From Granulicella aggregans (GTDB lineage Bacteria > Acidobacteriota > Terriglobia > Terriglobales > Acidobacteriaceae): a DNA stretch of 64,000 nt. Location: assembly GCF_014203275.1 (NCBI RefSeq), contig NZ_JACHIP010000003.1, forward strand, positions 806,001 through 870,000, given 5' to 3'. This document shows positions 49,111-64,000 of this stretch, piece by piece (position 1 is the first letter of the stretch; each line of letters begins with the position of its first letter). Below the pieces are notes generated by a model. That model had not been told where the DNA came from. It did not search any database and was given only the letters and a program-made list of their open reading frames with translations. Made by a program: the position numbers and the translations under genes.

Positions 49111-49115
49111 GCACC

Positions 49116-49139
49116 GTGCGGAACAACGGGCCGGAAATG
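49116..49139 (+). pseudogene. SRAP C-terminal tail remnant
   Basis: Encodes VRNNGPEMP in the frame of the SRAP tail; matches the VRNNGPEML end of the copy at 49860-50568. Confidence 0.45.
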
Positions 49140-49182
49140 CCGGACAGGCGCATACCTTTTCGGCATTGAGTCAGGATCTAAA

Positions 49183-49341: not shown

Positions 49342-49608
49342 GTGACCTCCTGCTATGTGAATTGGGCGTCGTGGCCGACAGTACTGCTTCGTGGCTCCGC
49401 GGTCAAATGATTGAATCTAAACGGTATACAGGTCAAATAGTAGGTACACGTAAGAAGTACAATTAGCACATAAAACTGTGGATGATATTCGCCTTGTATT
49501 CGCCTATTGTCCAGGCATGAGCCGGGAGCCGGCACACACCCCGGACGTGGTCGAGACGCATATGTTGCTCCTAGATGCCGCTGGAATCCCCGCCCGCCAG
49601 AGGTCCGA

Positions 49609-49824
49609 ATGTTTGATCCCGATGCGAACTTGCCCCGCCTCAACCGCAATATGGTCTATCTCGGCGCTTGCCTCATCGCGGGGATTCGGCTTGCCCGTGA
49701 GAAGCAAGTCAACATCCGGGTGATGCCGACGAGCGCGGCGATAGATGAGTCCGTCGAGATGGCGCACGAGATTTACAATCGGGTGTTTCGCCGGGTGCAC
49801 ACGCGGATCGGGGAGAAGGTCTAA
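49609..49824 (+). CDS. Conserved small hypothetical protein
   Basis: 71 residues from ATG 49609: one amphipathic helix (NMVYLGACLIAGIRLAREKQ) and a second acidic/basic helix (AIDESVEMAHEIYNRVFRRV). The pattern is of a real small protein; a longer start upstream (49507) gives a low-complexity N-terminus and is less likely. Located before the SRAP pseudogene. Confidence 0.5.
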   Translation: MFDPDANLPRLNRNMVYLGACLIAGIRLAREKQVNIRVMPTSAAIDESVEMAHEIYNRVFRRVHTRIGEKV

Positions 49825-49859
49825 AGCTCTCTTAGAGAGTTGGGCGGGATCACCAAGCT

Positions 49860-50568
49860 ATGTGTGGACGTTATCTTCGGAAATCCGACAAACAGCGCAT
49901 CGCCGAAGCGTTCCACACGCGAACATCAGCACCCTTGCCATGTCGCCGGACGATTACAACATCGCCCCTTCGACCTTTCAGCCCGTCATCCGAGAGAACA
50001 AAGACGAAGCGGGTCGCGAATTGGTGATGATGCGATGGGGCTTGATCCCGTTCTTTACAAAGCAACTATCCGACGTGAAGGGGATATCCACCATCAACGC
50101 GAGGGCCGGAACGATCCTTCGCAGCCCGATGTGGCGCGAGCCGTTCAAGAAGCGCCGCTGTCTTGTCCCTGTCTCCGGCTTCTATGAGTGGCACAAGATC
50201 GACGCGAAGACTCGGAAGCCGTACATCTTCACAGTCGCAGACTCATCACTGTTCGCATTTGCGGGGCTTTGGAACTCCTAGAAAGACCCCGATGGGGGAT
50301 GGCTTCAATCCTTCTCCATCGTAACCACCGAGGCGAACGAACTCATGTCCTCGATACACACTCGAATGCCGGTGATCCTCCATAGCCGCGACTACGACCG
50401 CTGGCTATCACGCGATGTCACCGAACAACCGCCGATTGATCTTCTACGACCGTTCGAATCAGACGAGATGGGATGGAACCGGCTAATCAGGCTGTCGGCA
50501 ATGTTCGAAACAACGGGCCGGAGATGTTGATTGGCGAGCCGCTGGTCAATACGGTTTCGCGGCCCTAA
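49860..50568 (+). pseudogene. SRAP (HMCES/YedK-like) gene with three lesions
   Basis: It starts MCGRYLRKSDKQRIAEAF at ATG 49860, with the catalytic Cys2 of SRAP proteins. A frameshift near 49920-49935 moves into the frame of SPDDYNIAPSTFQPVIRE, MRWGLIPFFTKQLSDVK, STINARAGT and CLVPVSGFYEWHK. A TAG at 50279-50281 replaces a probable Trp codon after FAGLWNS. A second frameshift near 50480-50495 leads to AVGNVRNNGPEML and a stop at 50568. SRAP proteins crosslink to abasic sites in single-stranded DNA and protect them. The gene cannot give a full protein without correcting all three. Confidence 0.85.
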
Positions 50569-50583
50569 GATCGGGAGGCAGAT

Positions 50584-50646
50584 ATGACCGAACAAGAACA
50601 AGAAACGATGCGAGTCTGGATTTGCGACAATTGCAACGAGGCTTAG
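50584..50646 (+). CDS. 20-residue peptide with strong RBS
   Basis: GGGAGG precedes ATG 50584. The product ends in ICDNCNEA (CxxC) and stops at 50646, 18 bp before the next gene. A leader peptide or a truncated gene. Confidence 0.3.
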   Translation: MTEQEQETMRVWICDNCNEA

Positions 50647-50663
50647 AGGAAGGAATTGAGCAA

Positions 50664-51050
50664 ATGATCGAGGAGCATAAGCGGAGCATCACTTGCTTAG
50701 TATTTCTAGGAAGCGAGTTTGATGGCGATGTCTTCAAGCCGAAGCACTACTGGTTGCAGTCCGCAAATAAAGCTTGGAAACGTCCGGCACCATTCCGCTC
50801 TTTTGACCGCGAGGAGGCGCTTGCTGCCCTCCCTACGAGCGTTCGACTGTTCTTTGAGCCGCTCGAACCGGCAATGATTCGCGGGAATGGTTTCTGGACG
50901 CTCCGTCTCGGCGTGACAGAAATGGACGAGGACGAACTGGATCGCGAATGGATATCGACCCCACATCCCGCCGTGGTCTTTCGTGAACCGGTGAACGAAG
51001 GAGACGACTGCGTTCCCGGGCTCGACGTGCCGGATGTCCTCATCCACTGA
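50664..51050 (+). CDS. Hypothetical protein, 128 aa
   Basis: From ATG 50664 with GGAAGGAA upstream. Soluble and acidic (FVFLGSEFDG-like start, SFDREEALAALPTSVRLFFE, EMDEDELDREWIS). No family recognised. A possible earlier start at 50622 overlaps the short peptide. An SRAP tail remnant follows directly. Confidence 0.5.
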   Translation: MIEEHKRSITCLVFLGSEFDGDVFKPKHYWLQSANKAWKRPAPFRSFDREEALAALPTSVRLFFEPLEPAMIRGNGFWTLRLGVTEMDEDELDREWISTPHPAVVFREPVNEGDDCVPGLDVPDVLIH

Positions 51051-51052
51051 GA

Positions 51053-51104
51053 TGCTGTCGGCGATGTGCGGAACAACGGTTCGGGAATGCTGGATAATGC
51101 GTGA
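51053..51104 (+). pseudogene. SRAP C-terminal tail remnant
   Basis: Encodes AVGDVRNNGSGMLDN and TGA, the terminal segment of SRAP proteins, with no upstream SRAP sequence. Confidence 0.5.
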
Positions 51105-51683
51105 ACTTACTCCTACGTCGCACCCACCCATCAAAGCCACAGCGCATCTAGGGACGGCGGGGATCGTCTAGCCTGCCGGCGCGGACCGAAGCTTGGAGCG
51201 CCGACAGTCTTTCGGCTTGCGCTGCTGTGCGCGGCTTGTCCTGGACATGCCTAGGGGAGTTTTTCGCTAGGCGCTAACTGCCGACAAGGGTGACTGTTCA
51301 ATGAAAACGGCGTTTGCGGAAGTTTCGGCTCCGCCGAATCGTCCGGACCGGCGAAGTTTCCGCAAACCTCGACTTTCCTGAAACCCATCTTTTTCGTTCT
51401 GCGCCCACCAAGTAAGTAGGGACTGCCCGAAAGGAACCTGTTCAGACGACCAACTTCATTGCGAACCCACTCACCGGCCTACATTCCAAAACCTCACGAA
51501 TACTCCGTCGTCCATAGGCCGCGTTCTCAAGCGAGCAGCTCCCCCGCCCCGTTCATTGCCGGACACAGATTCCATTTTTGGACAGTCACTACTATCCCCC
51601 TTCCAAGAAACCAGCAGTTCCAGTGTTGCGAATTGGCCACAAACCTGCAATGTCCCGGTCACTCTCTTCCGCCGGAGGCACCT
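51105..51683. other. Intergenic region with the first family-1 palindrome
   Basis: About 580 bp. Repeat copy A is at 51303-51384. A longer reading of the permease ORF (from 51459) runs through here but lacks an RBS. Confidence 0.45.
51303..51384 (+). repeat. Palindromic repeat family 1, copy A
   Basis: Left arm GCGTTTGCGGAAGTTTCGG and right arm CGGCGAAGTTTCCGCAAACC form an imperfect hairpin, closed by AAAACGG and CGACTTTCC ends. Confidence 0.75.
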
Positions 51684-54164
51684 TTGGAAATCCTCTTCCG
51701 TGAACAGCGCCACACCATCCGCCAGCTCCGTAAAGCACCCGGCTTCACCCTCGCCGCCGTGCTTACGCTCGCCTTCGGCATCGGTGCCACCACGACCATC
51801 TTCTCCATCGTCGAAGGGGTTCTCTTGCGCCCGCTTCCCTTCGCCGACCCCTCCCGGCTTGTCACCCTCGACGATCGCCTCTCCGGTGCCGGCGATGGCG
51901 TCGCGGGCATCTCCGCGCCAGAGATCGCGCCCTACACCCACGACACTCACAGCTTCACTTCAGTCGCCGCTTACCGCAGGGAAGCGGACGCACTCACAGG
52001 CGTCGGGGAACCCGCTCAGATCAGCGTCACCCGCCTCAGCGCGAGCGGCTTCCCCACGCTTGGGGTCTCACCTCTCTTCGGTCGGGTATACACCCTCGAA
52101 GAAGACGTACAGCGGCAGCAGGTAGCCATCCTCAGCTATCAGACCTGGCGCACCCGCTTCCACGGCGACACCAACATCCTCGGTAGGAAAATCCAGCTCG
52201 ACCGCCGCGAATACCAGGTCATCGGGGTCATGCCCGCTACCTTCGAGTTCCCATTGCTCCCCGGCCAGATCATGCGCAGCGAGCTCTGGGTTCCTCTCAG
52301 CCTCACCGACGCGGAGCAACTCCCACCTGCCATTAGCTGGAATTACAGCTTGTTCGGCCGCCTCAAGCCCGGCGTCTCTGCCTCCCAGGCCCAGTTCGAT
52401 GCCCAGCAGGTCGCGCAACAGGTCATGCGCGGCTTTCCCGCGGCCATGTCCACCCTCCACATCAGCTCCGTCGTCCAGCCGCTCGACGAAGCCACCGTCG
52501 CCCAGGCCCGCCCGCTCGTCCGCACCCTCTTCCTCGCCGTCGCCTTCGTCCTCTTCATCGCCTGCACCAACCTCGCCGGTTTGCTCCTAGTCCGCGTCAT
52601 CCGCCGCCGCCGCGAGATCGCCGTCCGCATCGCCCTCGGCGCCACAGCCGCCTCCGTCCTTCGTCAGACGCTGCTCGAAACCCTCACCCTCAGCGCAGGC
52701 GGCGCCGCTCTCGGCCTCGCCGCCGCCTCCGTCACACTTCGCGCCGGCGTTCGCTTCCTTCCCGAGAACCTGCCCCGCATCGCCTCCATCACCCTTGACT
52801 GGCAAGTCTCCACCTTCGCCTTCGTCCTTGCCATCCTCACCGGTCTCCTCTGCGGAGTCGTTCCAGCACTTGCCGCCTCACGAACCACCGTGAATGATGC
52901 CCTCAAGGAAGGCGGACGCACCGGCACCAGCGGCGGTTCACAGTCCCGCCTTCGCTCCGGTCTGGTCATCGCCGAGCTTGCCGTTGCTCTCGTCCTGCTC
53001 ACTGCTTCCGGCCTCTTCCTGCGCAGCTTCGAAAAACTCCGCTCCGTCGACCTCGGCTTCAGACCCTCCCACAGCCTCACCGCCTCCTATAGCTTGCCCG
53101 ACGAGCACTACCGCACCCAGGCCCAGATCGATGCCTTCAACGACCAGCTCCTCCTCCGCCTCCAGCAACTGCCCGGAATCGAGCACGTCGGCGTCACCTC
53201 CCAGCTCCCCATCAGCGGCGGCCCAGCCGGCAATTCCTTCCTTCCCGAAGGCACTCCACCCGCCAAAGACGGCGGCCTCATCCTCGGCTGGACCGCCCAG
53301 GCCTTCGGTGACTACTTCGCCGCCGCCGGAATCCCCATCCTCCGTGGCCGCGACTTCACCGAAGCCGACCGCCCCGACGCGCCCCTCGTCGCCATCGTCA
53401 ACCGCACCCTCGCCCAGCGCTTCTGGCCCAACCAGGACCCCATTGGCAAGCGCCTCCACTTCGGGCTCCGCGACACCCCGCTGCCCTGGCTCACCGTCAT
53501 CGGCGAGATCGGCGACGTCAAACAAACCAACGCCACCGCGCCCGTCGAGCCCCAGATCTTTCAGCCCGCCGCCCAGGCCAAGGCCTCCTACGGCATGCTC
53601 GCCCCTGCCGCCATGTTGAATGCCGACACAGGCTCCATCATGATGCGCGGCAGCATTCCTCCCGAGCAGATGGAGAACGCTCTCCGCTCCATCGTCCACT
53701 CCCTCGACCCCCAGCTCCCGCTCATCCAGGTCGAATCCATGCAGCAGGTCGTTGAAGAGGGCCAGTCCCCGCAACGCTTCAACGTCTCCGTCATCTCCTT
53801 CTTCGCCATCGCCGCCGCCCTGCTCGCCGTCCTAGGCATCTACAGCGTCATCGCCTTCTCCGCCGCCCTCCGCACCCAGGAGATGGCTATCCGCCTCGCC
53901 CTCGGGGCTCAGCGCCAGGGCATCATGAAGATCATCCTCCTCTCCGGAGCAAGGCTCGGCCTAATCGGCTGCACCATCGGCGCGGTCCTCGCCATCTTCG
54001 CTACCCGCCTCGTCCGCACCCTGCTCTTCGAAGTTGACCCCCTCGACCCCACAGTCATTGCCCTCGCCGCAATCGCCATCTTCCTTATAGCCATCGCCGC
54101 CTCGGCCATCCCCGCCCGTCGCGCCGCCTCGATCGAACCCATCGAAGCCCTACGCTCGGAGTAG
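51684..54164 (+). CDS. ADOP-type MacB/FtsX ABC transporter permease
   Basis: 826 residues from TTG 51684 with GGAGG five bases upstream; the frame is open back to 51459 but without export or family sequence. An N-terminal membrane helix (LAAVLTLAFGIGATTTIF) leads a MacB_PCD periplasmic domain, then FtsX helices (FLAVAFVLFIACTNLAGLLL, VLAILTGLLCGVVPAL), and a second such half ending in FFAIAAALLAVLGIYSVIAF and IALAAIAIFLIAIAASAIPA. ADOP ('acidobacterial duplicated orphan permease') proteins are frequent in this phylum and lack an adjacent ATPase, as here. The third codon position is extremely C-rich. Confidence 0.88.
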   Translation: MEILFREQRHTIRQLRKAPGFTLAAVLTLAFGIGATTTIFSIVEGVLLRPLPFADPSRLVTLDDRLSGAGDGVAGISAPEIAPYTHDTHSFTSVAAYRREADALTGVGEPAQISVTRLSASGFPTLGVSPLFGRVYTLEEDVQRQQVAILSYQTWRTRFHGDTNILGRKIQLDRREYQVIGVMPATFEFPLLPGQIMRSELWVPLSLTDAEQLPPAISWNYSLFGRLKPGVSASQAQFDAQQVAQQVMRGFPAAMSTLHISSVVQPLDEATVAQARPLVRTLFLAVAFVLFIACTNLAGLLLVRVIRRRREIAVRIALGATAASVLRQTLLETLTLSAGGAALGLAAASVTLRAGVRFLPENLPRIASITLDWQVSTFAFVLAILTGLLCGVVPALAASRTTVNDALKEGGRTGTSGGSQSRLRSGLVIAELAVALVLLTASGLFLRSFEKLRSVDLGFRPSHSLTASYSLPDEHYRTQAQIDAFNDQLLLRLQQLPGIEHVGVTSQLPISGGPAGNSFLPEGTPPAKDGGLILGWTAQAFGDYFAAAGIPILRGRDFTEADRPDAPLVAIVNRTLAQRFWPNQDPIGKRLHFGLRDTPLPWLTVIGEIGDVKQTNATAPVEPQIFQPAAQAKASYGMLAPAAMLNADTGSIMMRGSIPPEQMENALRSIVHSLDPQLPLIQVESMQQVVEEGQSPQRFNVSVISFFAIAAALLAVLGIYSVIAFSAALRTQEMAIRLALGAQRQGIMKIILLSGARLGLIGCTIGAVLAIFATRLVRTLLFEVDPLDPTVIALAAIAIFLIAIAASAIPARRAASIEPIEALRSE

Positions 54165-54290
54165 AGAACGTTCGCCAATCGTGGATATCAGTGGCTGCAC
54201 AGATGTGAGTACCGCAGTGCTCCCGTTATGGCTGATAGCCATCGCCATTAACATGGCTGCCTTCTGAAAGCCATGTGGGGGCATCCTCAC

Positions 54291-54386
54291 GAAAAACGAG
54301 GTTTGCGGCAACTTCGAGCCGTTGTGCCACCCGCGTTGCCTATCGACCACATTGGGCGGACTTGCCCCAAACACCGACTTTGCGGA
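54291..54386 (+). repeat. Palindromic repeat family 1, copy B
   Basis: GAAAAACGAGGTTTGCGGCA at the left and CCCCAAACACCGACTTTGCG at the right, with a longer centre than other copies (~96 bp in all). Confidence 0.65.
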
Positions 54387-54421
54387 CGTCTCACGACAGT
54401 CCTACCGCGATAGCTCGCGAG

Positions 54422-54640
54422 ATGGACGAGAAGGTCTGGTTGCTTTGGTTTGAGCAAGCGAGCGAAGAGGGTGAGGACACGGAGCTGCTCATCGGCGTTT
54501 ACCGAACCGAGGAGACGGCAAAAGGGGCGATCATGCGCTTACAGGATCAGCCCGGTTTTAGAGAGTATCCCGATGGGTTCCACATCTACGCACGGATCCT
54601 GGACCAGGATTCGTGGACGGAAGGATTCGCGAGGGTATAG
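54422..54640 (+). CDS. DUF7336-like small protein
   Basis: 72 residues from ATG 54422. The pattern KVWLLWFEQ.....TELLIGVYRTEETAKGAI, PGFREYPDGFHI, LDQDSWTEGF matches a widespread family of small cytoplasmic proteins (GVYST-type strand then helix, PGF..., ...WTEGF). Function unknown. It follows repeat copy B. Confidence 0.7.
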   Translation: MDEKVWLLWFEQASEEGEDTELLIGVYRTEETAKGAIMRLQDQPGFREYPDGFHIYARILDQDSWTEGFARV

Positions 54641-54695
54641 CTCCTCTCTGCAGCCGCAAGCGATGAAGTGTCCCATAACGTCGACTTCGTGGGAA

Positions 54696-54944
54696 TTAGG
54701 ACGTCAAACCAGCTCGATGGGAAGGAGCTGAGAACTTCTTCTTCATGTCCGTCCAATGCATCTGTGCTGAAATCAGCCCCGGCAGCACGGCATCGACGAA
54801 GCCGTCTTCCATCGTTGTGGACCCGGGCGAAGACAACCAGCCAAAGTGGAAACAAGCAACATGCGCGGCTCGCACAGCAGCATAGCAAGCGATGGAAATG
54901 ACGATCCACAGAGTGAGATATTGGACATGACCTCCACGGCGCAT
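54696..54944 (-). CDS. Small membrane protein
   Basis: 82 residues from ATG 54944 with GGGAGAGA upstream. One clear membrane segment (LTLWIVISIACYAAVRAAHV) and a second weak one. No family recognised. A longer frame upstream to 55340 has no support. Confidence 0.45.
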   Translation of the reverse strand: MRRGGHVQYLTLWIVISIACYAAVRAAHVACFHFGWLSSPGSTTMEDGFVDAVLPGLISAQMHWTDMKKKFSAPSHRAGLTS

Positions 54945-55023
54945 TCTCTCCCACTGTGCTGACGACCGACGGCTTTGGAGCCACTTCCACGCCATGGGGA
55001 AAGGATACACATCAACGCCAATC

Positions 55024-55107
55024 CCGGAAAACGGCATTGTCGGAAACTTCCACCCGTCCGGTGGCCCGAGGCCCGTCCTTGCTGGAAAAGCCGACGTTGC
55101 GGGAACT
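55024..55107 (+). repeat. Palindromic repeat family 1, copy C (diverged)
   Basis: GAAAACGGCATTGTCGGAAA followed ~55 bp later by GAAAAGCCGACGTTGCGGGA; possibly two half-units. Confidence 0.5.
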
Positions 55108-55117
55108 CCGCGTGCTC

Positions 55118-55642
55118 TCATTTCCAAGCAACCACACACTGCTTCAGAATGCACGGCGCAGTCCAGGCGGTCATGAACTCTTCTCTGGGTATCGATTTCC
55201 CCTCTGCAAGCCTTAGCTTTCCACGAGTGGCTCCAACGATGATGGAGAAGTGACCGGTGTCGGACGGGGTATCGTACAGAACGATAGGGATACGTCCCCG
55301 TTTCCTTTGCGCCAGTACTTCGGGCAGATGAATCGCGCATTGCACGGGGACACCTAAGCGTTTCAGGCGATGGTAGCCACGCATCTCGAAACCGCCAACG
55401 TCCGCGTCAGGATCTGAGTGGAATGAAACTTGAAGGCCCAGTTGTTTGAGGCCAGCTGCTATGTGTACGGCGAACGCTCCATAGCGTTTCGTGTGTCGGC
55501 AAGCAGAGATGATCTCGGCCGGTTCGGGACTCTTCCCAAAATGATGAAGTGCACACCACGCAGCGAGGGGGCCACAATGCCCATCCAAGTTCAAGATTTC
55601 TTCTGGAGCCGTCCACCAATCGGGAAGATTCATCGTATGCAC
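55118..55642 (-). CDS. Peptidase C39-like family protein
   Basis: 174 residues. The papain-like site is seen in LDGHCGPLAAWCALHHF (Cys in the GHCGP motif) and TGHFSIIVGATRGKL (His in the GHFS motif), the usual C39 Cys-His spacing. No signal peptide and no ABC transporter fusion, so it is not a bacteriocin exporter; stand-alone C39-like proteins of unknown use are common. An orphan cassette-like gene between repeats. Confidence 0.65.
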   Translation of the reverse strand: MHTMNLPDWWTAPEEILNLDGHCGPLAAWCALHHFGKSPEPAEIISACRHTKRYGAFAVHIAAGLKQLGLQVSFHSDPDADVGGFEMRGYHRLKRLGVPVQCAIHLPEVLAQRKRGRIPIVLYDTPSDTGHFSIIVGATRGKLRLAEGKSIPREEFMTAWTAPCILKQCVVAWK

Positions 55643-55901
55643 GCTTCGGACTAGCTGAATGCGCTAACGCAGAGCATACAGCGTTCCCATCCCGGGAAAT
55701 GGGGTTATGACCAACTTCGACCTAGCGAGCCCACTTCATACATCTGATCGGCCGTCCTGCTTGTCCGAGCTTGCCACGAAGACGCCTCTTGGGCCAGTTC
55801 GATGATGGCTTCGGCGGAACGCTTAGCTAAAATCGAGCTCCGCTAGAAACATCCAGTGTCTACAATTTAGCCAACACGTAGTCTCGGGCAAGAGCACGAA
55901 A

Positions 55902-56279
55902 ATGCTGACTCACGTTGAATTTAGATCCGACCGATTTGGTGCAGTGGCAGGGGAAGGCAAGCTCGTGAATCCTGATCTTTGGGGAAGAAGGCTTGCGGAT
56001 TTCCTAAGAGCAGGCCTGATCAACGAGGGATTTGAGGTGACGGAGCCGATTGCAGAAGACTGGGGCTGGGCCATGAAGATCAAGAGCGAAACCCCGTACC
56101 TCTGGGTCGGATGTGGTCATTACCAGGAACATGCCGACGGCTATCTTTGTTTCATTGAGCCGAACGCTCCTCCTGCTTGGCGGCTATTTGGCAAGATGAA
56201 AATGACGAGGCGGATCGCGGAGCTTCAGAGGTCAGTGGACAGAATTCTTGCCGAGGAAGCTGGCATCCGCGCAAAGTAA
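55902..56279 (+). CDS. Conserved hypothetical protein
   Basis: 125 residues. Recognisable widespread pattern: NPDLWGRRLADFLRAGLINE, GFEVTEPIAEDWGWAMKI, LWVGCGHYQEHADGYLCFIE, and a basic C-terminal helix (ELQRSVDRILAEEAG). No function assigned. Starts at ATG 55902. Confidence 0.65.
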   Translation: MLTHVEFRSDRFGAVAGEGKLVNPDLWGRRLADFLRAGLINEGFEVTEPIAEDWGWAMKIKSETPYLWVGCGHYQEHADGYLCFIEPNAPPAWRLFGKMKMTRRIAELQRSVDRILAEEAGIRAK

Positions 56280-56393
56280 TGGTGGAGCTACGAGGATTTC
56301 AACCTGCATCGACGTGAACTTCCCGGTATTTGAAATTGAACTGCCTTGATGGGATGACGACGTTGCCGAAGTCGTCAACTTTCGTGGAGCAGC

Positions 56394-56663
56394 CTACATC
56401 TGGTTGCTCCGATTGGACCTCGAAGCTCTCCACCAATCAACCGCTAAACCTAAAGCGCCACCGACCGCTAAGCCATAAAGCGCGTAATGAGGAGCATATT
56501 CGAATTCCATCCACATAGGGCGAGCATGTCCAAGGAGCAAGGTCCCGAAGAACATGGATCCACCGAGCAAGAATGCCCCTGTCCCAGCGAGGCAAACTGT
56601 GTATTTTGGCTTTTCAGGCGAAACCATAAAACCAAGCGTACTCGCGACAAGCAGGTACGTCAT
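56394..56663 (-). CDS. Membrane protein, hypothetical
   Basis: 89 residues with three hydrophobic helices (TYLLVASTLGFMV, CLAGTGAFLLGGSMFFGTLL, HYALYGLAVGGALGLAVDWW). No family recognised. Near family-1 copy D. Confidence 0.45.
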   Translation of the reverse strand: MTYLLVASTLGFMVSPEKPKYTVCLAGTGAFLLGGSMFFGTLLLGHARPMWMEFEYAPHYALYGLAVGGALGLAVDWWRASRSNRSNQM

Positions 56664-56710
56664 TAGGCCTGGTTGAATCTACTGCAACCTGCTCCCGAGT
56701 GTGACCTCCC

Positions 56711-56791
56711 GCGAAACGGTGTTTGCGGAAGTTTCGGATCCGCCAAATCGTCCGAACCGCCAAATTTTCCGCAAACAACGACTTTCCGGAA
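56711..56791 (+). repeat. Palindromic repeat family 1, copy D
   Basis: GTGTTTGCGGAAGTTTCGGA and TTTTCCGCAAACAACGACTT; arms pair imperfectly. Confidence 0.75.
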
Positions 56792-56833
56792 GTCTTCAGC
56801 GGACACTACAAGCCGTAGTAAGGTGTGAAGTCT

Positions 56834-57271
56834 ATGGAACGATTCCACCTTGATGCTGCGCTTCTTTATTCGGAATGGGCATTTGAGTTTCTTCTGCTCC
56901 CCCCGATATCGGCCCTATTCGTCGGAGCCGCGATCAGCTCAGTTTGGGCAGGACTCTATCAGCGACCGTTCCGAAAGCATCTCTGGAAGCGGCACTACGC
57001 GCTTGTGCTGACTCACTTCTCATTCTTTGCGGCAGCTATCGTAGTCGGCTTACTTTGGGTGAACGATCCGAGGAATCACCACCCTGCCAGTCGGGTCGCG
57101 ACGTTCTGGTTAGACGCTGTGATTTGCGGATCGCTCGCTTCTTGCATCATTTGGACTTGGCAGATGAAAGGATTTCGGTGGTTTGCGGCCAGCTTGATGG
57201 TATTGGCTGAAGTGATCACGTTCGGCGCTATCTTCGTGGCTGGCATGTCGATATCGGGCGACTGGTTGTAG
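56834..57271 (+). CDS. Membrane protein, hypothetical
   Basis: 145 residues from ATG 56834 with four hydrophobic helices (FEFLLLPPISALFVGAAISS, ALVLTHFSFFAAAIVVGLLW, FWLDAVICGSLASCIIWTW, ASLMVLAEVITFGAIFVAGM). No family recognised. Flanked by family-1 copies D and E. Confidence 0.6.
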   Translation: MERFHLDAALLYSEWAFEFLLLPPISALFVGAAISSVWAGLYQRPFRKHLWKRHYALVLTHFSFFAAAIVVGLLWVNDPRNHHPASRVATFWLDAVICGSLASCIIWTWQMKGFRWFAASLMVLAEVITFGAIFVAGMSISGDWL

Positions 57272-57295
57272 GCTGCTGTCACGCCCTAAGTCCCG

Positions 57296-57374
57296 AGAAA
57301 CGGGGTTTGCGGAAGTTTCGGCTCTGCCAAATCCTCCGGACCGGCGAAGTTTCCGCAAACACCGACTTTGCGGC
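57296..57374 (+). repeat. Palindromic repeat family 1, copy E
   Basis: GGGGTTTGCGGAAGTTTCGG and GGCGAAGTTTCCGCAAACAC: 17 of 21 arm positions pair. Confidence 0.8.
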
Positions 57375-57406
57375 AGGCTGGTCCGCGCCAAGTCGGCGTT
57401 GCACAA

Positions 57407-57814
57407 TCACGCGACAGCCGAGCGTTTCAATCTGCGCATAGCCACTGCGACGAGGAAACCGATGATGCTGATAGGGATGCCGATCATCCCGATGCACCCT
57501 ACCAATCCGAAACCCACTGCGAGCGGGCCGCCGTCGCCGTGGGCGCTCCCGCCAGCTAGAGCGAAAAGGATGAGTCCCGCGAGGAAGGAAGCAAATGAAG
57601 TGCATACTCCTGCCAGCCAGCGGCCTAGACCGACCCTATCCGTCATCAGCCTGAATGCTTGGATCTCCAGAAGGCAAAGCAAACCGATAAATGAGACGAA
57701 CTCCGCTATGTGAATGTAGAACCTGTGCGCGTCGCCGTTGTGTTGCCCATGAATCACATCAGCAACGGCCAAGATGAGTGTGGACATACCGAAAACAGCG
57801 GTCGCTTTCTTCAT
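57407..57814 (-). CDS. Membrane protein, hypothetical
   Basis: 135 residues with four predicted helices (FGMSTLILAVADVIHG, FVSFIGLLCLLEIQAF, FASFLAGLILFALAGGSA, GCIGMIGIPISIIGFLVAVA). No family recognised. Confidence 0.55.
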   Translation of the reverse strand: MKKATAVFGMSTLILAVADVIHGQHNGDAHRFYIHIAEFVSFIGLLCLLEIQAFRLMTDRVGLGRWLAGVCTSFASFLAGLILFALAGGSAHGDGGPLAVGFGLVGCIGMIGIPISIIGFLVAVAMRRLKRSAVA

Positions 57815-57862
57815 TGACGAAAGTTTATCGCACGGTATCGTCAGCTGAAGCTAATCGTTCCC

Positions 57863-57900
57863 CCGAAACGGGGTTATCGGAAACCTCGGGCCGGTCCAGC
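57863..57900 (+). repeat. Palindromic repeat family 1, half copy F
   Basis: CGAAACGGGGTTATCGGAAA and CCTCGGGCCGGTCC, then the element is lost. Confidence 0.5.
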
Positions 57901-57903
57901 GTC

Positions 57904-58269
57904 TCAGGCGACCCCAAGGTCTTCAACGAAACGAGCATCGTATCGAACCTTCTCCGGTTTCAGACTCTGCTGATCGACAATAACCGCAACGAGGCAATCC
58001 CAGACGCTCTGGGGGGACCAGGGGAGGACCTCCGCCGGTGCCGGAAGCGGCGTGTGCTTGTACATGAATAGGAACGTCTTCTCCTTCATCGTTATCTCAG
58101 GCAGTTGTGCAGAGCTGACGGGTGCCTGTAGTGGGACCAGGTTCAGTTTGCCGCAGACCAGATCGTAGAAGTTCCCGACGGTTCGAACGGTCGCAGCCTC
58201 GCCGTCCTCTACTGTGATTACGAATAGCTCTTCCGTGCGAAGAACGATCTCTACGGCATCGAGTCCCAT
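57904..58269 (-). CDS. Small protein with acyl-carrier-like pattern
   Basis: 121 residues. The start MGLDAVEIVLRTEELFVITV, EDGEAATVRTVGNFYDLVCG resembles the helix II/III part of acyl carrier proteins, and the protein ends ARFVEDLGVA. No phosphopantetheine Ser (DSL) motif at the start, so carrier function is doubtful. It ends near half copy F, which could have truncated it. Confidence 0.5.
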   Translation of the reverse strand: MGLDAVEIVLRTEELFVITVEDGEAATVRTVGNFYDLVCGKLNLVPLQAPVSSAQLPEITMKEKTFLFMYKHTPLPAPAEVLPWSPQSVWDCLVAVIVDQQSLKPEKVRYDARFVEDLGVA

Positions 58270-58321
58270 AGATTGAGGTTAGCGCGAACAAACCTGTGGC
58301 CGCGCCCAGATGTGATGCACT

Positions 58322-58388
58322 TAAAACGGCGTTTTCGGAAACCGCTCCCGCTCGATGTCTGTCGCCGACACGGTTCCCGCAACCCGAC
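58322..58388 (+). repeat. Palindromic repeat family 1, copy G (short)
   Basis: AAAACGGCGTTTTCGGAAAC and GGTTCCCGCAACCCGAC. Confidence 0.55.
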
Positions 58389-58490
58389 CCATCGCAGCGC
58401 CGTTTGTGCGCATCGGACGCAAATCAAAACAGCTACGCGGAGAGCAACCGACAATGGCAGAGAACGCCGCACACCTAGCAGTCTTGGAGG

Positions 58491-59324
58491 TCAGTCTACC
58501 CGCGCCCACGCTCCATATTGCACAGTTGCCAGTAACTGGCTTCCCGTCTCCACTGCTTCTTTTTCCAAAAGCCCCGCCAGATTCGCATCAAGTGCTATCC
58601 CCTCTGGAGGGGTTAATCCGAGTCGATGCAGAAGCGGCGCAATGCTGATCATCGAGTTTGCTAACCAGCCATATACATACGAAGCACGGCCGCCGCCGAC
58701 GATGCCGTTGGACTCTATTGTAGGAAACGGCAATCCGGCTTGAAGGAAGGTGCCGCCAAGCCGTCGTCCAAAGTCCGGCTTCGCTCCGGATTTCAGGAAT
58801 GCTTGCGTGACCAAAGAATATAACTGGTCGAAAAGGGGACACGGAGGGTAACTGGGCTGCTCGATCGGGATGTCCACATCATGAAACGCAACGATGGCTC
58901 CCCGATTCAGAAACCTTATTAAATGCCGCAGAGTGGCGGCAGGATCCGGCAGGTAAAGCAGAATGTATCTGCCGATCAACGCGTCGTACTTTTCTTCCGA
59001 AGCAAACTCATCCAGCGTAGACGTCTGAAACTCCACCCAGGAAGAGCATCCCTGCTGGGAGGCCCGCTCTTGTGCTCGCTTAATCGACATGGAATCGCGA
59101 TCGATGCAGGTCACACGACCACCCGGACCGACGATGTCAGCAGCCAAAAAGGCCACGTCTCCGACGCCACACCCCACATCGAGCACGCGCATGCCGACCG
59201 AGAGCCCTGCTGCTCGAAAGTAGTGTTCTGTGTACGGACGGAGAAATCGGCCCTGAAAGAGCAACCGCTCCTGCTCAAAAATGGATTGCCCAAAGACGTA
59301 ATTCTCACGCGATGAGTCACTCAT
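58491..59324 (-). CDS. SAM-dependent methyltransferase
   Basis: 277 residues from ATG 59324. Class I methyltransferase motifs: LDVGCGVGDVAFLAA (motif I), VTCIDRD (motif post-I), YDALIGRYILLYLPDP (motif II region). Typical of ubiE/cypemycin-type small-molecule methyltransferases. A longer frame upstream (59528) adds unrelated sequence covering repeat H. Substrate unknown. Confidence 0.82.
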   Translation of the reverse strand: MSDSSRENYVFGQSIFEQERLLFQGRFLRPYTEHYFRAAGLSVGMRVLDVGCGVGDVAFLAADIVGPGGRVTCIDRDSMSIKRAQERASQQGCSSWVEFQTSTLDEFASEEKYDALIGRYILLYLPDPAATLRHLIRFLNRGAIVAFHDVDIPIEQPSYPPCPLFDQLYSLVTQAFLKSGAKPDFGRRLGGTFLQAGLPFPTIESNGIVGGGRASYVYGWLANSMISIAPLLHRLGLTPPEGIALDANLAGLLEKEAVETGSQLLATVQYGAWARVD

Positions 59325-59443
59325 CGGCGAAGTATACCGCCGCGTCATTACTATGTCGCTCATTTTTAGCAGTGCTAGACGTTGTTCGATGAATCGCCTG
59401 TGCGGAATCATCGCTTGGCCCAAGAGGATCCCACAAGCTCCCT

Positions 59444-59526
59444 CAAAACGGGATTTTGGGAAACCTCGAACCGTTTCGGCCGCCCGGGAGACCCGATGTT
59501 GCCGCAAACACCGACTTTCAAGGAAC
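59444..59526 (+). repeat. Palindromic repeat family 1, copy H
   Basis: CAAAACGGGATTTTGGGAAA at the left and TTGCCGCAAACACCGACTTT at the right. Confidence 0.65.
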
Positions 59527-59543
59527 AATGTTTCTGGGCTGAG

Positions 59544-59849
59544 TTAGCGAATTCTTCTCGGTTGATTCGATGGCACAAGCGTTCTGTACAAAACCCTCCC
59601 GCCACCTATTGCGATTGCAGCGGTCGTGAATATGCCGATCCATGCGCCTCGCTGGTAAGCGATCACTGCGGCTCCGATTCCACCGAGAAGAAGAGTTCCG
59701 CCCACCACCATCGCGCCTGCCCGCTGTATGCGAGATTTGTCTCGTGTGCCGTTCCAGAACACGTCATTGACATGGCGGTCATTGGCAATGACGTCAGAAG
59801 GCAGCGTGTTGCGTTGTCTCTTCCTCAGATCATCGTTGATTGTCGGCAT
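59544..59849 (-). CDS. Small membrane protein
   Basis: 101 residues; a charged N-terminus and two hydrophobic helices (AGAMVVGGTLLLGGIGAAVI, GIFTTAAIAIGGGRVLY). No family recognised. Flanked by copies H and I. Confidence 0.5.
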   Translation of the reverse strand: MPTINDDLRKRQRNTLPSDVIANDRHVNDVFWNGTRDKSRIQRAGAMVVGGTLLLGGIGAAVIAYQRGAWIGIFTTAAIAIGGGRVLYRTLVPSNQPRRIR

Positions 59850-59891
59850 CGGCGAGGTCTCTCAAACGTATCCACAGCATAGCTGGTTCCC

Positions 59892-59973
59892 TGGAAACGG
59901 GGTTTGCGGAAGTTTCGACTCCGTCGGACCGCCCGGCGGACTACCTTGCCGCAAACGTCGACTTTACGGGAGG
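59892..59973 (+). repeat. Palindromic repeat family 1, copy I
   Basis: GAAACGGGGTTTGCGGAAGT and CTTGCCGCAAACGTCGACTT. Confidence 0.7.
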
Positions 59974-60042
59974 TTCTCTCGTTCTGTTCAACCTGAGCTA
60001 GAATTCCGGAGCGGCAGGACTCAGTGCCAAAGGAGCTTGGCT

Positions 60043-60654
60043 GTGGCAGACCCGTTGACGATTGATCCCTCTCGCACAGCCTTGTTGAGCATGGATTGCC
60101 AGGTCGGCATCCTCTCCATCTACACCCGCGATGCCAAGGACGCTTTCCTTGGTCGAGCCGCAAAGGTCCTCAGTCATGCTCGTGCCGTTGGGATGACGAT
60201 CATCCATGTTCAGGTAGGCTTTCGCCCAGGGCTGCCCGAAGTCAGTGCTCGCAATGCGCTGTTTGGTGCCGTCAAGACTTCGGAACAGCATCAACAACTC
60301 TTCCGGGCACCACTCGGGTCCATCCCCGACATCATTGCGCCGAGGGGTGACGAGATCGTCATCACCAAGCATCGAGTCAGTGCGTTCGCGGGAACCGATC
60401 TTTCCATGATCCTCCGCGCCAACGATATCGATACCCTGATCCTTTATGGCATTGCCACCAGCGGTGTGGTTCTGTCTACCCTCGTCGAGGCCGCCGACGC
60501 CGATTATCGCCTTGCCATCATAGGCGACTGCTGCGCTGACCTTGACCTTGAGCTTCACAATCAACTCCTCCAGCGATTCTTCCCCACGCGAGGCTTGGTT
60601 TTGTTATCCGACAGCTTCATCGATGTCCCTTTGAAAAAGAACGAGGAAGGCTAG
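60043..60654 (+). CDS. Isochorismatase-like hydrolase lacking the usual Cys
   Basis: 203 residues from GTG 60043 with AAAGGAG seven bases upstream. Asp is present in TALLSMDCQVGILS, Lys in ITKHRVSAFAGTDL. In the nucleophile position the typical Cys of the T.xxCV motif is Val (GIATSGVVLST), so normal cysteine-hydrolase chemistry is unlikely; some phenazine-type isochorismatases also lack it. ADLDLELHNQLLQRFFP is the usual C-terminal helix. Small, orphan, next to family-1 copy I. Confidence 0.75.
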   Translation: MADPLTIDPSRTALLSMDCQVGILSIYTRDAKDAFLGRAAKVLSHARAVGMTIIHVQVGFRPGLPEVSARNALFGAVKTSEQHQQLFRAPLGSIPDIIAPRGDEIVITKHRVSAFAGTDLSMILRANDIDTLILYGIATSGVVLSTLVEAADADYRLAIIGDCCADLDLELHNQLLQRFFPTRGLVLLSDSFIDVPLKKNEEG

Positions 60655-61104
60655 GACTTGTGGCCATGAACGGACTCATCGGCCTGTGCCCTCAGTGGAG
60701 ATCACTGGCGGAGGTTGTTCTCCGATCACTGAGCTTCCAGGAAACGGGGCGGTCTCAACCGGTCGATGCAACACTGGCATGGAGTTTACTAGCTGGAGTT
60801 TCAAAATCCAACGTCGCCAAATCTCGGACTTCTGCTCCGCAGAAAGACCATGACGTCTCCCTTGTCTCATACACACCACCTCTCAAGAAATGATCTAAAT
60901 CAGATGGTGTTGCATCGACCGGTTGAGACCGCCCCATTTTGAAGGGCTAGAACAAATCCATGAAAGCGAAAGCAGATCAGAATACTCCTCAGTGCCCCAG
61001 TCTGAGGCAGCATTGCTTTTCGCCTGCGTTTCTGGTGTTCCAAAGAGATAACGATAAAACTATTGAAAGCGGCTTAGCGCTTTGCCGATAGCAACGGAAG
61101 GAAA
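60655..61104. other. Intergenic region with an IS30-derived miniature element
   Basis: The 190-bp element 60746-60935 is described separately; the remainder (60936-61104) shows nothing. Confidence 0.5.
60746..60935 (-). mobile_element. IS30-derived miniature element (MITE) with perfect 29-bp TIRs
   Basis: 60746-60774 and 60907-60935 are exact inverted copies (GGGGCGGTCTCAACCGGTCG... start). On the minus strand the interior begins a transposase: RRHGLSAEQKSEIWRRW, the N-terminal helix-turn-helix start of IS30-family transposases, then truncated. The element is a non-autonomous deletion derivative; it needs an IS30 transposase elsewhere. Confidence 0.8.
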
Positions 61105-61464
61105 GTGAGTGAGAACTATATGAGCGCCTCTGAGCTGCTAGTCATTCAAATGGAATTTGTTGTCAAAAACGGGGAGCAACCACTTTCGGTAATACTTAGG
61201 CGCCCAATGACCTCTGAACCTCATAAGGTGGTCCAGCTATGCTTGCATGAGGCACGGGTACTGGGTGGCATTTGGGACCTGTCAGGCAAAGTGTTTTATC
61301 CCTGGCATGAAGTGAACCAGATGACCTGGCGGCCAGATGCTGCCACTGCAGAGGACTGGGGGCATCTCGGCTTCCGTGCGGCGATGAAACACTTAGAACT
61401 GACTGGAGGGGCGATCTCCGAAGATCCTTATAGAATCCCCGAGGACGAGCGGATCAAAAGCTGA
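61105..61464 (+). CDS. Hypothetical protein, 119 aa
   Basis: From GTG 61105 (GGAAGGAAA upstream); the next ATG 61120 is an alternative. Soluble, with ELLVIQMEFVVKNGEQPLSV, MTWRPDAATAEDWGHLGF. No family recognised. Confidence 0.5.
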   Translation: MSENYMSASELLVIQMEFVVKNGEQPLSVILRRPMTSEPHKVVQLCLHEARVLGGIWDLSGKVFYPWHEVNQMTWRPDAATAEDWGHLGFRAAMKHLELTGGAISEDPYRIPEDERIKS

Positions 61465-61705
61465 CTTTATGGGCGATGACGAACGAAACGAAGGGGCGCG
61501 TTGCTCCACCATGGCGGGCGACCGTCGTCGCTGGAGCGGCGCAGCTTCAGACACCCGGAGACCAGTCCCCGAGACCGGTCCGGGATCAGTTTACTGGCCA
61601 CGATCAGGCGCAGCTTCCTCTGATTGGCAGCCCTTCGCTCGCTCGGTGCGTTGGCGCGTATCGACACACGAGTGCTATTTTGCCTGTAAAGCGCGTACCT
61701 CCGAT

Positions 61706-62323
61706 CTAGAGCGTTCTTATCGCTGCGTTCGGTACAGAACGAATCAAAAGCCAGCCGCCGGTCGAGAGTTCTGCAAGCAGCATCGGGATCCACAGAACCG
61801 CGCTCAAAGCTGGAAAATTGGGCCGAACGAGATGTGTAGCGCACGCGGCGAAAGCGAGGATCGATGCAACTAGACCCAACCAGCCTAGAACCCTTGGAAT
61901 GGATACCGATCGGACAAAGACAAAGAAAAAGAGCGTTGAACCAATCGTGAAGATCAGGGCATCAAAGCTGGTCGCAGTATTCCAGTCCACGAACTCAAGA
62001 ATGAAGCTGCCGAAGTGCGCACCGGCGAACGCTGATCGGACTGTATCGAAACGGACCACCGCTACAATAAGCCCGATAAGAACTTCCACAAGTCGGCATG
62101 CCAGCGCAATGGCCGACGTGACAGGCTTAAACATCTTCAGTGTGAAGTAAAGGCCTAGCGCCAGCGGCACAACAAATACCGAACCAGCCAGCATTAACCA
62201 CTTCCCAAGCAACTGATGGGATAACTGCAAGCCGGTAAGATCGACCCCCAGGACCAGCAGGTAAGCCAATCCTGAGACCCGTGCCCATAAACGTCGTGAC
62301 TGGAGATCACGATTCGATGTCAT
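61706..62323 (-). CDS. DUF4386-like membrane protein
   Basis: 205 residues with six hydrophobic helices (RVSGLAYLLVLGVDLTGLQL, WLMLAGSVFVVPLALGLYFT, ACRLVEVLIGLIVAVVRFDT, LGWLGLVASILAFAACATHL, LWIPMLLAELSTGGWLLI). RLVEVLIGLI in helix 3 fits the DUF4386 family. Function unknown. Confidence 0.7.
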   Translation of the reverse strand: MTSNRDLQSRRLWARVSGLAYLLVLGVDLTGLQLSHQLLGKWLMLAGSVFVVPLALGLYFTLKMFKPVTSAIALACRLVEVLIGLIVAVVRFDTVRSAFAGAHFGSFILEFVDWNTATSFDALIFTIGSTLFFFVFVRSVSIPRVLGWLGLVASILAFAACATHLVRPNFPALSAVLWIPMLLAELSTGGWLLIRSVPNAAIRTL

Positions 62324-62741
62324 CCTCGCACCTCGCTTTTGTCACAGAGGCATACGCCTGCTGCTATCTCCTGGTTCCCCTCTAATCTAGTTGGTTGCCT
62401 CGCTTCCCCAAAAAAATTCCTATCTTTATTCAATTGTGGTGCGATGGCATCTCGACTGGACCATTCAGAGCGATACGCTGATTTACTTTGAACTGTCTCA
62501 AATGGCGACTCTGAAGCTCGGCTACGGATGACGATCTTGCGCGGATCTGGCCAGTCGGTCTCGAACCTGCCGCGAAGTCGGTGTTTGCGGAAACCTCGTC
62601 GGTCCGGACGGTTTGGCGGAGCCGAAACTTCCGCAAATCCCGTTTGCGGGATCAAGGCAACAAATTGTTCAGGATGCTTCCTACCTTCTACGACCGGCCA
62701 TTACTTGCGTCCTGCCTGATCGCCCTGAGAGGATGGCTTGC
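62324..62741. other. Intergenic region with family-1 copy J
   Basis: No supported gene. It holds a full-length repeat in reverse orientation (62570-62653). Confidence 0.45.
62570..62653 (-). repeat. Palindromic repeat family 1, copy J (reverse)
   Basis: Reverse complement reads GGATTTGCGGAAGTTTCGGC and GGTTTCCGCAAACACCGACT, very close to copy E. Confidence 0.75.
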
Positions 62742-62951
62742 ATGGAAACAGCAGGTATGTGGCCGCGCATTATCTGCACATGCTTCGGGATGTTGCTACT
62801 CTACTTCGTGGCACATGGAACGATAACAGGGCGAGCATTCGGAAAATTCGGTGAGTTGGATCGCATACGCCAGCCCTTCGGGTATTGGTTAGTCCTGGTT
62901 TCGCAGGCTGCGGCTGGCATCCTGTTATTCGTTGCAGCCATCCTCCTGTAG
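62742..62951 (+). CDS. Small membrane protein
   Basis: 69 residues from ATG 62742 (GAGAGGA upstream), with two helices (WPRIICTCFGMLLLYFVAHG, YWLVLVSQAAAGILLFVAAI). No family recognised. Flanked by copies J and K. Confidence 0.5.
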   Translation: METAGMWPRIICTCFGMLLLYFVAHGTITGRAFGKFGELDRIRQPFGYWLVLVSQAAAGILLFVAAILL

Positions 62952-62957
62952 TCACGA

Positions 62958-62990
62958 CGCTGATTTCCGCAAACGCCGTTTCTGGGGAAT
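62958..62990 (-). repeat. Palindromic repeat family 1, half copy K (reverse)
   Basis: Reverse complement reads AGAAACGGCGTTTGCGGAAA. Confidence 0.5.
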
Positions 62991-63089
62991 TAATGTCTCT
63001 CTGCCGCGTCGCTCCGACGCAACTGGTCCCGACAGCGGCTGTCTCGCGGTTCACATCTCCTTTCATCGATTCGAGTGCTCATTGCTTCC

Positions 63090-63147
63090 GTGTTCGAGTA
63101 CCCACAGTCCCAAGCCCGTGCCATTCGCGCCCTTCGTCGTTTCCTGC
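63090..63147 (-). pseudogene. Histidine-kinase ATPase (G2 box) remnant
   Basis: Encodes ETTKGANGTGLGLWVLEHGS, matching the TTK...GTGLGLWV ATP-lid region of histidine kinases. Nothing else of the kinase remains. Confidence 0.6.
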
Positions 63148-63276
63148 ATGATCTCCGCATTGACCGAATCCATCAGCACCCAATCCGCTTCCGCCATCGC
63201 AGAGGCCGCCTGCGCCTTCGGCATCGGAGCACCCCAGGCAGATGACATCACCGTCCTTACCATCACTCGCGAGTAG
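63148..63276 (+). pseudogene. SpoIIE/PP2C phosphatase C-terminal remnant
   Basis: Encodes SISTQSASAIAEAACAFG, then QADDITVLTITRE and stop: the typical end of RsbU/SpoIIE phosphatases (..DDITVLTL.R). The catalytic core is missing. Confidence 0.7.
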
Positions 63277-63320
63277 CCGGTCGAAGCGCGATCCTGATCT
63301 AATGGTTTTGCCGATTCCCT

Positions 63321-63350
63321 TGAAACGGCGTTTTCGGAAACTGAGCCGAG
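63321..63350 (+). repeat. Palindromic repeat family 1, half copy L
   Basis: TTGAAACGGCGTTTTCGGAA, then sequence is lost. Confidence 0.5.
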
Positions 63351-63423
63351 CCTAGATCCCGATGAACGCTTTCCCATCAGAAGTGTTTCTGGCTTGATGA
63401 TCAAGTCGGCGATACAGTCGCCA

Positions 63424-64000
63424 TCATGCTGGAGCGACTACCAGAGGGTTCTTAGCGAATGTGCCGTCTCGTCTCGCTTTATCGAAGTGCTTCTGCGTTT
63501 TCAGCAAAGCGATGAGGACTCCAAGCAGTCTGTCGGCTAAACCGCGCAATGCCCGTGCATGCTGGTGGCCTGCTCCCCTCAGTGCGTCGTAGTGTTTTCG
63601 GCTCCTGATGTCACAGCAGAGGCTACTTGTCGCCCAATAGAACACTGCGTTTCGCAAGCGCGGACTGCAAGCCTGACGCATGCCGACGGTTTTTCTCTTG
63701 CCGCTTTGCCTAGTAACCGGAGCCGTGCCGGCATAACAGCGCAATGCCTCGTAATCCCGGTCCCGGATCGGCTTGGAGGCCTCCGTCAGAATAGCTGCGG
63801 CGACAGCAGGGCCGATACCAGGAATAGATAGGAGCAGGCCGGCATCGCACGGTGGCTGATTCGTCCCTGCGTTCGCCTCAGTCATGACGGTTAGGAGGCA
63901 CTTGATGCGATTGCCCACTTCCCGAAGTTGCTCCTCCAGTAGCCTCACCTGGGGAAGCGGCAGTTGAACATGCTCACAGGCCGCCTCGGCTGCGCCTGGA
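63424..64000 (-). mobile_element. IS110-family transposase (5' partial at window end)
   Basis: On the minus strand the frame is open to base 64000. The C-terminal IS116/IS110/IS902 domain is clear: LLLSIPGIGPAVAAAILTEA, LRCYAGTAPVTRQSGKRK, RNAVFYWATSSLCCDIRSRK. The N-terminal DEDD nuclease half lies outside the window. IS110 elements move without long inverted repeats and use a non-coding RNA guide encoded near the ends in characterised members; the 3' end region is at 63424 and below. Transposase stop at 63424-63426. Confidence 0.85.

Follow-up and report, generated by a model that had tools for sequence, protein, structure and literature searches.

A 64,000-nt stretch of the Granulicella aggregans genome, hereafter the window (bases 806001-870000 of the 877-kb contig C3; genome G000, 7.3 Mb in 83 contigs), exhibits an imperfect palindrome that recurs between small genes from 51.3 to 63.35 kb. 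Pattern scans, repeat scans and covariance models identified nine full and three half copies of this palindrome (family 1). Each copy is composed of two tyrosine-recombinase-like core sites, a left (L) and a right (R) core, placed head to head. The homology between gene modules from different loci repeatedly stops at these cores, and a tyrosine recombinase gene lies inside the loop of such a palindrome in four genomes. We consider it likely that the window covers a segment of a cassette array, integron-like in some respects and pdif-like in others, that is served by an integrase of its own.

Anatomy, distribution and orientation of the palindrome

The L core reads TCCCGCAAA-ACGGCG-TTTTCGGCAA and the R core, taken as the reverse complement, TCCCGCAAA-GTCGGTG-TTTTCGGCAA. 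The arms of the two cores match; their spacers, bounded by AAA and TTT inside CCGNAAA/TTTNCGG in the alignment, have different sequences and often different lengths. Some relatives possess a right spacer that is shorter by one base, yet its sequence is still unlike the left one; this L/R asymmetry is kept across an alignment of 100 copies. In the same alignment the end boxes are nearly fixed (AAACGG in 94-97 copies; GACTT in 96-97, followed by T in 87), the middle is variable, and the mean column identity is 60%. Two-sided changes keep the pairing at 14 of 20 pairs, a level reached by 8 of 500 shuffles, and the overall covariation score was reached by none of 500. Arm covariation alone is compatible with a hairpin as well as with two inverted protein-binding sites. 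Folding each copy, as the initial annotation of this region had proposed, is likewise weak evidence by itself: 4 of the 12 single strands fold at z <= -2.2, but several others are no better than shuffles. The distances between left and right boxes cluster at 42-45, 52-55, 62-66 and 84-86 nt. That core spacing obeys a strict 10.5-nt rule is no more than suggested, because related copies are not independent and the resultant, 0.64 at 10.5 nt, is slightly higher at 20-21 nt.

Of two covariance models, R1 was built from six copies and R2 is wider. The twelve full or half copies reported by the initial annotation were all recovered, the nine full ones by R1 and the three half ones by the repeat and pattern scans; R2 recovers eight of the nine full copies, missing the one at 58317. 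The first 51 kb of the window had been described as free of copies, and indeed neither model matches anything before 51.29 kb. The statement that copies occur in both orientations holds only weakly: a minus-strand copy exists, but eight of the nine full copies are on the plus strand. A count across the whole genome (7.3 Mb) gave 17 occurrences of the arm pattern AAACGGNGTTTGCGGAA, far above chance, and none of its backwards control. Genome-wide, R1 returned at least 76 rows, many of them two-strand echoes, with 150 of 2290 first-look candidates scored. They map to the terminal 21 kb of C3, to a region close to the end of C2 and to small contigs, and exact-pattern, DNA and R2 searches added a few stray copies on C1 and C4. 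The even genome-wide scatter that had been named as an argument against cassettes is thus absent, and the arrays have probably been split up by the assembly. The array contigs are the end of C3, C22, C31, C34, C45, C52 and C53.

Among 61 genomes (G. aggregans and its relatives), 13 carry the palindrome, every one in the same genus (1 of 17 genera). An R2 search of the class found it in 20 of 299 genomes and 4 of 106 genera: 16 genomes of this genus, one of a second genus of the same family and, with weaker matches, three from two genera of another family. One of the positive relatives, G031, is Granulicella tundricola MP5ACTX9, and its contig C4 is the plasmid pACIX905 (NC_015060). Site-like copies with 52 nt between boxes in three of three cases were seen on contigs C121, C125 and C557 of G319 (family f7), possibly a related system. 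A pattern scan of a wider genome-contig collection gave two deltaproteobacterial matches.

The organisation of the arrays was analysed on 278 sites from 23 genomes, within loci fetched because they held matches. Of 167 neighbouring sites less than 3 kb apart (15 genomes), 158 share their orientation and nine are opposite; dropping one of each near-identical genome pair leaves 150 against nine. Co-oriented neighbours are separated by a median of 719 bases (10th-90th percentile, 392-1698), and the longest run comprises up to eleven sites within 10 kb (contig C3 of G011, another species). Our codon-based gene caller assigned the genes of the co-oriented intervals to the strand of the site in 56 cases and to the opposite strand in 50. 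The published annotation of pACIX905 provides a comparison at 74-92 kb, with a twelfth interval at 19-20 kb lying outside it: of the 11 co-oriented intervals, seven hold one non-transposase gene, two hold an insertion sequence and one gene, and two hold no gene, the non-transposase genes being three on the strand of the site and six opposite. The gene strands being split in both data sets, the orientation of the sites does not follow transcription. Replication polarity was rejected as the cause of co-orientation, as the orientation flips by eye within a few kb on one contig (from 3504676, minus, to 3507578, plus, on G011 C1; from 80808, plus, to 85624, minus, on G031 C4). An RNA element or terminator was rejected on account of the independence from gene strand together with the result of an Rfam search, in which window positions 48000-64000 gave no match over the gathering score.

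Module boundaries and the array integrase

An all-against-all comparison at an identity of at least 74%, with near-identical genome pairs left out, yielded 509 distinct alignment ends. For 38 of these the nearest core centre, R in 23 cases and L in 15, is at most 15 nt away. Random placement of the ends puts on average 6.5 near cores, with a maximum of 14 in 200 runs; after shifts of the ends by 150-600 nt the mean is 5.2 and the maximum 11. Some sharing was seen in 42 non-orthologous site pairs. In 24 of these a single flank is shared, and the homology breaks at the L core in 12, at the R core in 11 and unclearly in one; the examples inspected are 90.9-98.9% identical. The remaining pairs are below every threshold (11), share the core only or have too short a core (5), or share everything (2). 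A model with one crossover point in each site, like that of attC, was rejected because the L and R boxes both break. Flank sharing is like with like in 27 of 30 cases (17 L-L, 10 R-R), and the three L-R pairs, plus two of the L-L pairs, all adjoin a further element, the X arms (GGCGGTCTCAACCGGTCGATGCAACAC).

The X arms were inspected by eye: each of the 18 in the fetched loci of G. aggregans (two lie in the window) connects at the spacer to a family-1 half-core. They may be a partner half-site or an element using the cores.

Several modules are bounded by cores on both sides. A 653-nt module occurs twice on pACIX905 with 98.9% identity and unrelated palindromes at both ends. Two modules of the G. 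aggregans genome, one shared by C45 and C29 and the other by C53 and C2, run from an R core to an L core, and the surrounding palindromes differ between the copies. These three cases indicate that modules have moved without the neighbouring palindromes. Another alignment on pACIX905 (708 nt, 98.3%) has the gene and the palindrome in common and ends in the right spacer. Window positions 62629-62989 match contig C3 of G011 over 363 nt with 96.7% identity, and the homology stops in a core on each side; the bounding cores in G011 are visible in the alignment and are not called by the model. Judging from this alignment, the module probably moved without either adjacent palindrome.

Near-identical genomes allow a comparison at the strain level. 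The pair G014/G215 has an array region of about 107 kb in common, with long blocks 97.8-99.8% identical. Conserved gene order between strains, which the initial annotation had set against the cassette interpretation, is partly seen: 15 of the 20 listed site pairs (G014/G215 and G108/G143) keep both flanks and the core, but two clear breaks are located at cores (left at G014 C2:1667800, right at 1688809), and other indels lie elsewhere. At the left break a core is joined to non-core sequence in G215, so this break could also be an ordinary deletion. A 100-bp indel between the two strains carries a half site.

The integrase is a tyrosine recombinase of 318 aa encoded at C22:39971-40927 of the G. 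aggregans genome. It matches Phage_integrase (PF00589) with 86 bits; the best named models are XerC and XerD, both far below their cut-offs. The alignment reveals R162, K189, H259, R262, H285 and Y295, which we take to be the active-site residues of tyrosine recombinases (R, K, HxxR, H, Y). Inverted R-type arms flank the gene at -74..-50 upstream and +4..28 downstream, and the same arrangement is found in pACIX905 (73450-74400, WP_013573308.1, 86% identical) and on G011 C3 (two pieces, 83-87% identical). The arm upstream of the integrase is L-type on contigs C120, C162 and C146 (at the contig end) of G034, and a weaker R-like arm is discernible by eye downstream on C120 and C162. With arms on both sides, the integrase gene thus lies inside a palindrome loop in four genomes, which provides the link between repeat and integrase that the initial annotation had suggested looking for. 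The nearest sites on both sides point away from the integrase on G000 C22, G011 C3 and G031 C4. From their position, the R arms around the gene in these three genomes could correspond to an attI; cassette insertion there was not observed. In a fifth genome a site is found 2.8 kb from a 77% identical relative (G018 C469).

Relatives at least 74% identical are present in 6 of the 61 genomes, all six among the 13 site-bearing ones (hypergeometric probability 3e-5, at a threshold set after the list was seen); the relative in G017 is a 154-residue piece only. Sites were searched in 21 loci, comprising 20 loci of integrase homologues and one viral contig. Two of them, L216 (77% identical integrase) and L220 (63%), carry family-1 sites; in the same search the model calls no site on G034 C146 and G017 C33, where a relative is present. 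A scan of viral contigs with the integrase gave a single relative (66%), and a family-1 site was not found on that contig. Before the start codons of the integrase and of several paralogues (loci L081, L151, L142, L171 and L219-L226), a conserved leader was noticed by eye, in which a small inverted repeat encloses a GGAG that resembles a ribosome-binding site, for example GCGG-AAGGGAGACCGC; a control of translation by this leader is possible.

Other features of the window

Table 1. Features of the window (positions from its first base).
Feature	Position	Strand	Basis
Second-family palindrome copies	5529-5608, 7090-7125, 8468-8558, 21536-21570, 23210-23287, 29966-30047, 44298-44335	mostly +	
Full site: L core AAAACGGCGTTT, loop, R core CCGCAAACCTCGACTTT	51298..51386	+	R1, R2, pattern scan
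MacB/FtsX-like permease gene, 826 aa, between sites 1 and 2	51684..54164	+	Pfam
Full site, long loop	54287..54391	+	R1, R2
Module gene, 72 aa, DUF7336 match under cut-off	54422..54640	+	Pfam
Full site, diverged	55022..55108	+	R1, R2
Module gene, 174 aa, no Pfam match	55118..55642	-	ORF list, Pfam
Module gene, 125 aa, no Pfam match	55902..56279	+	ORF list, Pfam
Module gene, 89 aa, no Pfam match	56394..56663	-	ORF list, Pfam
Full site	56707..56795	+	R1, R2
Module gene, 148 aa, no Pfam match	56825..57271	+	ORF list, Pfam
Full site, top score of genome search	57291..57379	+	R1, R2
Module gene, 135 aa, no Pfam match	57407..57814	-	ORF list, Pfam
Half site, L core alone	57859..57884	+	repeat and pattern scans
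Module gene, 121 aa, nothing over cut-off	57904..58269	-	ORF list, Pfam
Full but degraded site	58317..58400	+	R1 (weak, E-value 0.46); not R2
Module gene, methyltransferase domain, 277 aa	58491..59324	-	Pfam
Full site	59439..59528	+	R1, R2
Module gene, 101 aa, no Pfam match	59544..59849	-	ORF list, Pfam
Full site	59888..59975	+	R1, R2
Module gene, isochorismatase domain	60091..60654	+	Pfam
X element: inverted arms GGCGGTCTCAACCGGTCGATGCAACAC, each side joined to an outer L half-core (AAACGGGG / CCCCATTT)	60736..60945	none	
Gene, 119 aa, no Pfam match	61105..61464	+	Pfam
Gene, DUF4386	61706..62323	-	Pfam
Full site	62564..62652	-	R1, R2
Module common to window and G011 C3	62629..62989	none	
Half site, L core	62964..62990	-	repeat and pattern scans, alignment with G011
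Half site, L core	63314..63343 (scan start 63321)	+	repeat and pattern scans
IS110-family transposase, 174 codons searched, frame continuing beyond window end	63424..63948	-	Pfam

The first 44 kb of the window exhibit a second palindrome family (CGCCAATGCAC...GTGCATTGGCCTGATATCGCC), with 15 rows genome-wide at E-values up to 1. An integrase fragment is located at 22952-23140, and a gene 5-6 kb before the window (C3:799931-800815) encodes an integrase 63% identical to the array integrase. The alignment places a cysteine at the position of the catalytic tyrosine, so the latter enzyme may be dead; its upstream flank weakly resembles the left arm of the second family. In six comparisons between this family and the flanks of integrases at 61-63% identity, the score was reached by none of 500 shuffles in two cases and by 5 of 500 in one, and was not significant in three, a partial link. 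A single genome may thus have had several integrase/site pairs operating in parallel. A 78-nt stretch is found twice with 99% identity, 14.7 kb apart, at second-family copies (23210-23287 and 8468-8545), which suggests recent exchange there too. Between 25399 and 28977, a 300-nt stretch occurs in five copies spaced about 810 nt apart, four of them 61-75% like the first.

Mechanism, rival explanations and known systems

The initial annotation had listed mobile cassettes among the possible interpretations, and this one gains support from the clustering and co-orientation of the copies, the module breaks at the copies and the integrase tied to the repeat. In the mechanism that we propose, a gene would be flanked by the R core of the palindrome on one side and the L core of the following palindrome on the other. 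Strands would be exchanged in the spacers by a dedicated XerC/D-like integrase whose own gene resides in a palindrome loop, and only like cores would pair (L with L, R with R). As a consequence of this pairing, the polarity of the sites would be kept and inversion within the gene unit avoided, with gene orientation left free. Two exchanges, one L x L and one R x R, would swap a gene alone, in keeping with the theory of recombinase-mediated cassette exchange; a single exchange would lose or gain a gene along with a palindrome. The nested integrase is presumably the acting enzyme, the strands presumably cross in the spacer, and the substrate would be double-stranded rather than folded DNA. Recombination at the cores is deduced from sequence comparison.

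Several observations weigh against this mechanism. Thirteen of the 509 alignment ends are nearest a loop centre, not a core. Several single-flank pairs are only 72-78% identical in the flank, where chance or old age is possible, and some pair counts are redundant (G014 and G215 each against G297; G029 against G108 and G143, with the whole site in common). Of the 158 co-oriented intervals, 69 are without a gene called by our codon-based caller. Many indels between G014 and G215, those of 2.8 kb and 0.85 kb among them, are away from sites. A relative of the integrase at 74% or more is missing from seven of the 13 site-bearing genomes; these would therefore need an enzyme in trans, or their sites are relics. 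The integrase of G011 is frameshifted and the copy on G034 C162 is broken in two. Among the 21 loci searched, L217 (79%) and L218 (74%, partial) yielded no site with the model.

Each rival explanation predicts something that the data do not show. The copies could be passive repeats between genes, either repetitive extragenic palindromes (REP) and bacterial interspersed mosaic elements (BIME) or miniature inverted-repeat transposable elements (MITEs), with the genes shuffled by hairpin template switching or homologous recombination. The palindromic structure and the four of 12 copies that fold clearly better than shuffles agree with this explanation; polymerase stalling could give breaks at hairpin bases, and the short copies could derive from a full-length parent represented by the integrase-bearing ones. 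We nevertheless regard it as unlikely, given that 95% of neighbours are co-oriented independently of gene strand, that sharing is L-L and R-R with L-R only beside X arms, and that both boxes break, not one; copies of such diversity are also a poor substrate for homologous recombination. Both variants had been raised by the initial annotation. REP/BIME was rejected, the copies being clustered and genes of the REP-associated tyrosine transposase (RAYT) type few and unlinked: Y1_Tnp (PF01797) has two genomic matches, one on C4 and one on C1, both away from arrays. A simple MITE is not supported by modules that move without the palindrome or by an orientation independent of the genes.

That the host XerC/XerD acts on the cores, the nested integrase being merely another passenger, appears to us quite improbable. 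The xrs/pdif modules of Acinetobacter, as presented in sections of PMC11705084, do consist of genes between inversely oriented sites with divergent central regions; the cores described here, however, are without the ATAA-central region-TTAT motif given for Xer sites in those sections. Moreover, the integrase lies inside its own palindrome loop in four genomes and its close relatives accompany arrays.

The R boxes of attC sites have the consensus RYYYAAC and GTTRRRY, and attC is itself a paired two-box structure. An ordinary chromosomal integron, or a cluster of attC sites lacking integron integrases (CALIN), with unusual attC sites would share this paired architecture and would account for small genes alternating with co-oriented sites at intervals of 0.4-1.7 kb. 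Both R boxes on one strand were, however, found in none of the 278 sites. The array integrase scores 30.9 bits against the IntI model TIGR02249, whose cut-off is 265, and none of eight genomes has a match over this cut-off (matches scored in pieces). On these two grounds, attC boxes and IntI, the integron was rejected. Genes pointing both ways, breaks at both boxes and modules moving without the site are also unlike it. Integrons are reported in Acidobacteriota in parts of PMC8618304, but as an explanation for the present arrays we find one very hard to credit.

We class the arrays described here among the tyrosine-recombinase cassette systems, with an integron-like layout and a pdif-like logic, but as members of neither group. 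Like integrons, they exhibit rows of small, mostly unannotated genes, intergenic palindromic co-oriented sites, a tyrosine recombinase in the array, and cassettes common to different loci and species. Unlike integrons, they have the integrase inside a site and both cores would exchange. Short extragenic palindromes in many copies are characteristic of REP/RAYT and MITE families; in contrast to these, the present copies are tied to an integrase and to module boundaries. The exchange between like sites proposed for Acinetobacter pdif/xrs in sections of PMC11705084 resembles our model, and so does the gene between inversely oriented cores with non-identical central regions; the differences are other arm sequences, a dedicated array-encoded integrase, cores paired into palindromes and long co-oriented runs. 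The recombinase genes of RIT elements, which form trios of tyrosine recombinases, are reported to be flanked by an inverted repeat and by a palindrome, a feature shared with the present integrase; an RIT element has three recombinases, and the sections of PMC3414803 that describe it do not describe a cassette array. A description of the present system was not found in the open PMC literature searched. We tentatively suggest, with somewhat more doubt than confidence, a third natural cassette system independent of integrons and Xer modules, in which genes lie between two mutually incompatible cores and are swapped by double exchange (a natural recombinase-mediated cassette exchange), the integrase resides in the loop of its own site, and the short palindrome is an empty integrase slot.

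Tools that seek IntI and attC would not be expected to detect such arrays. Granulicella tundricola MP5ACTX9 would offer a cultured test strain, pACIX905 carrying both an integrase with an open frame and an array, and the system could supply a natural pair of incompatible recombination sites. If our interpretation is correct, gene capture in cassette arrays arose more than once, with other enzymes, other sites and another rule, two incompatible cores replacing the single attC. It would also explain a source of many orphan genes in soil Acidobacteria and a route by which they pass between species.

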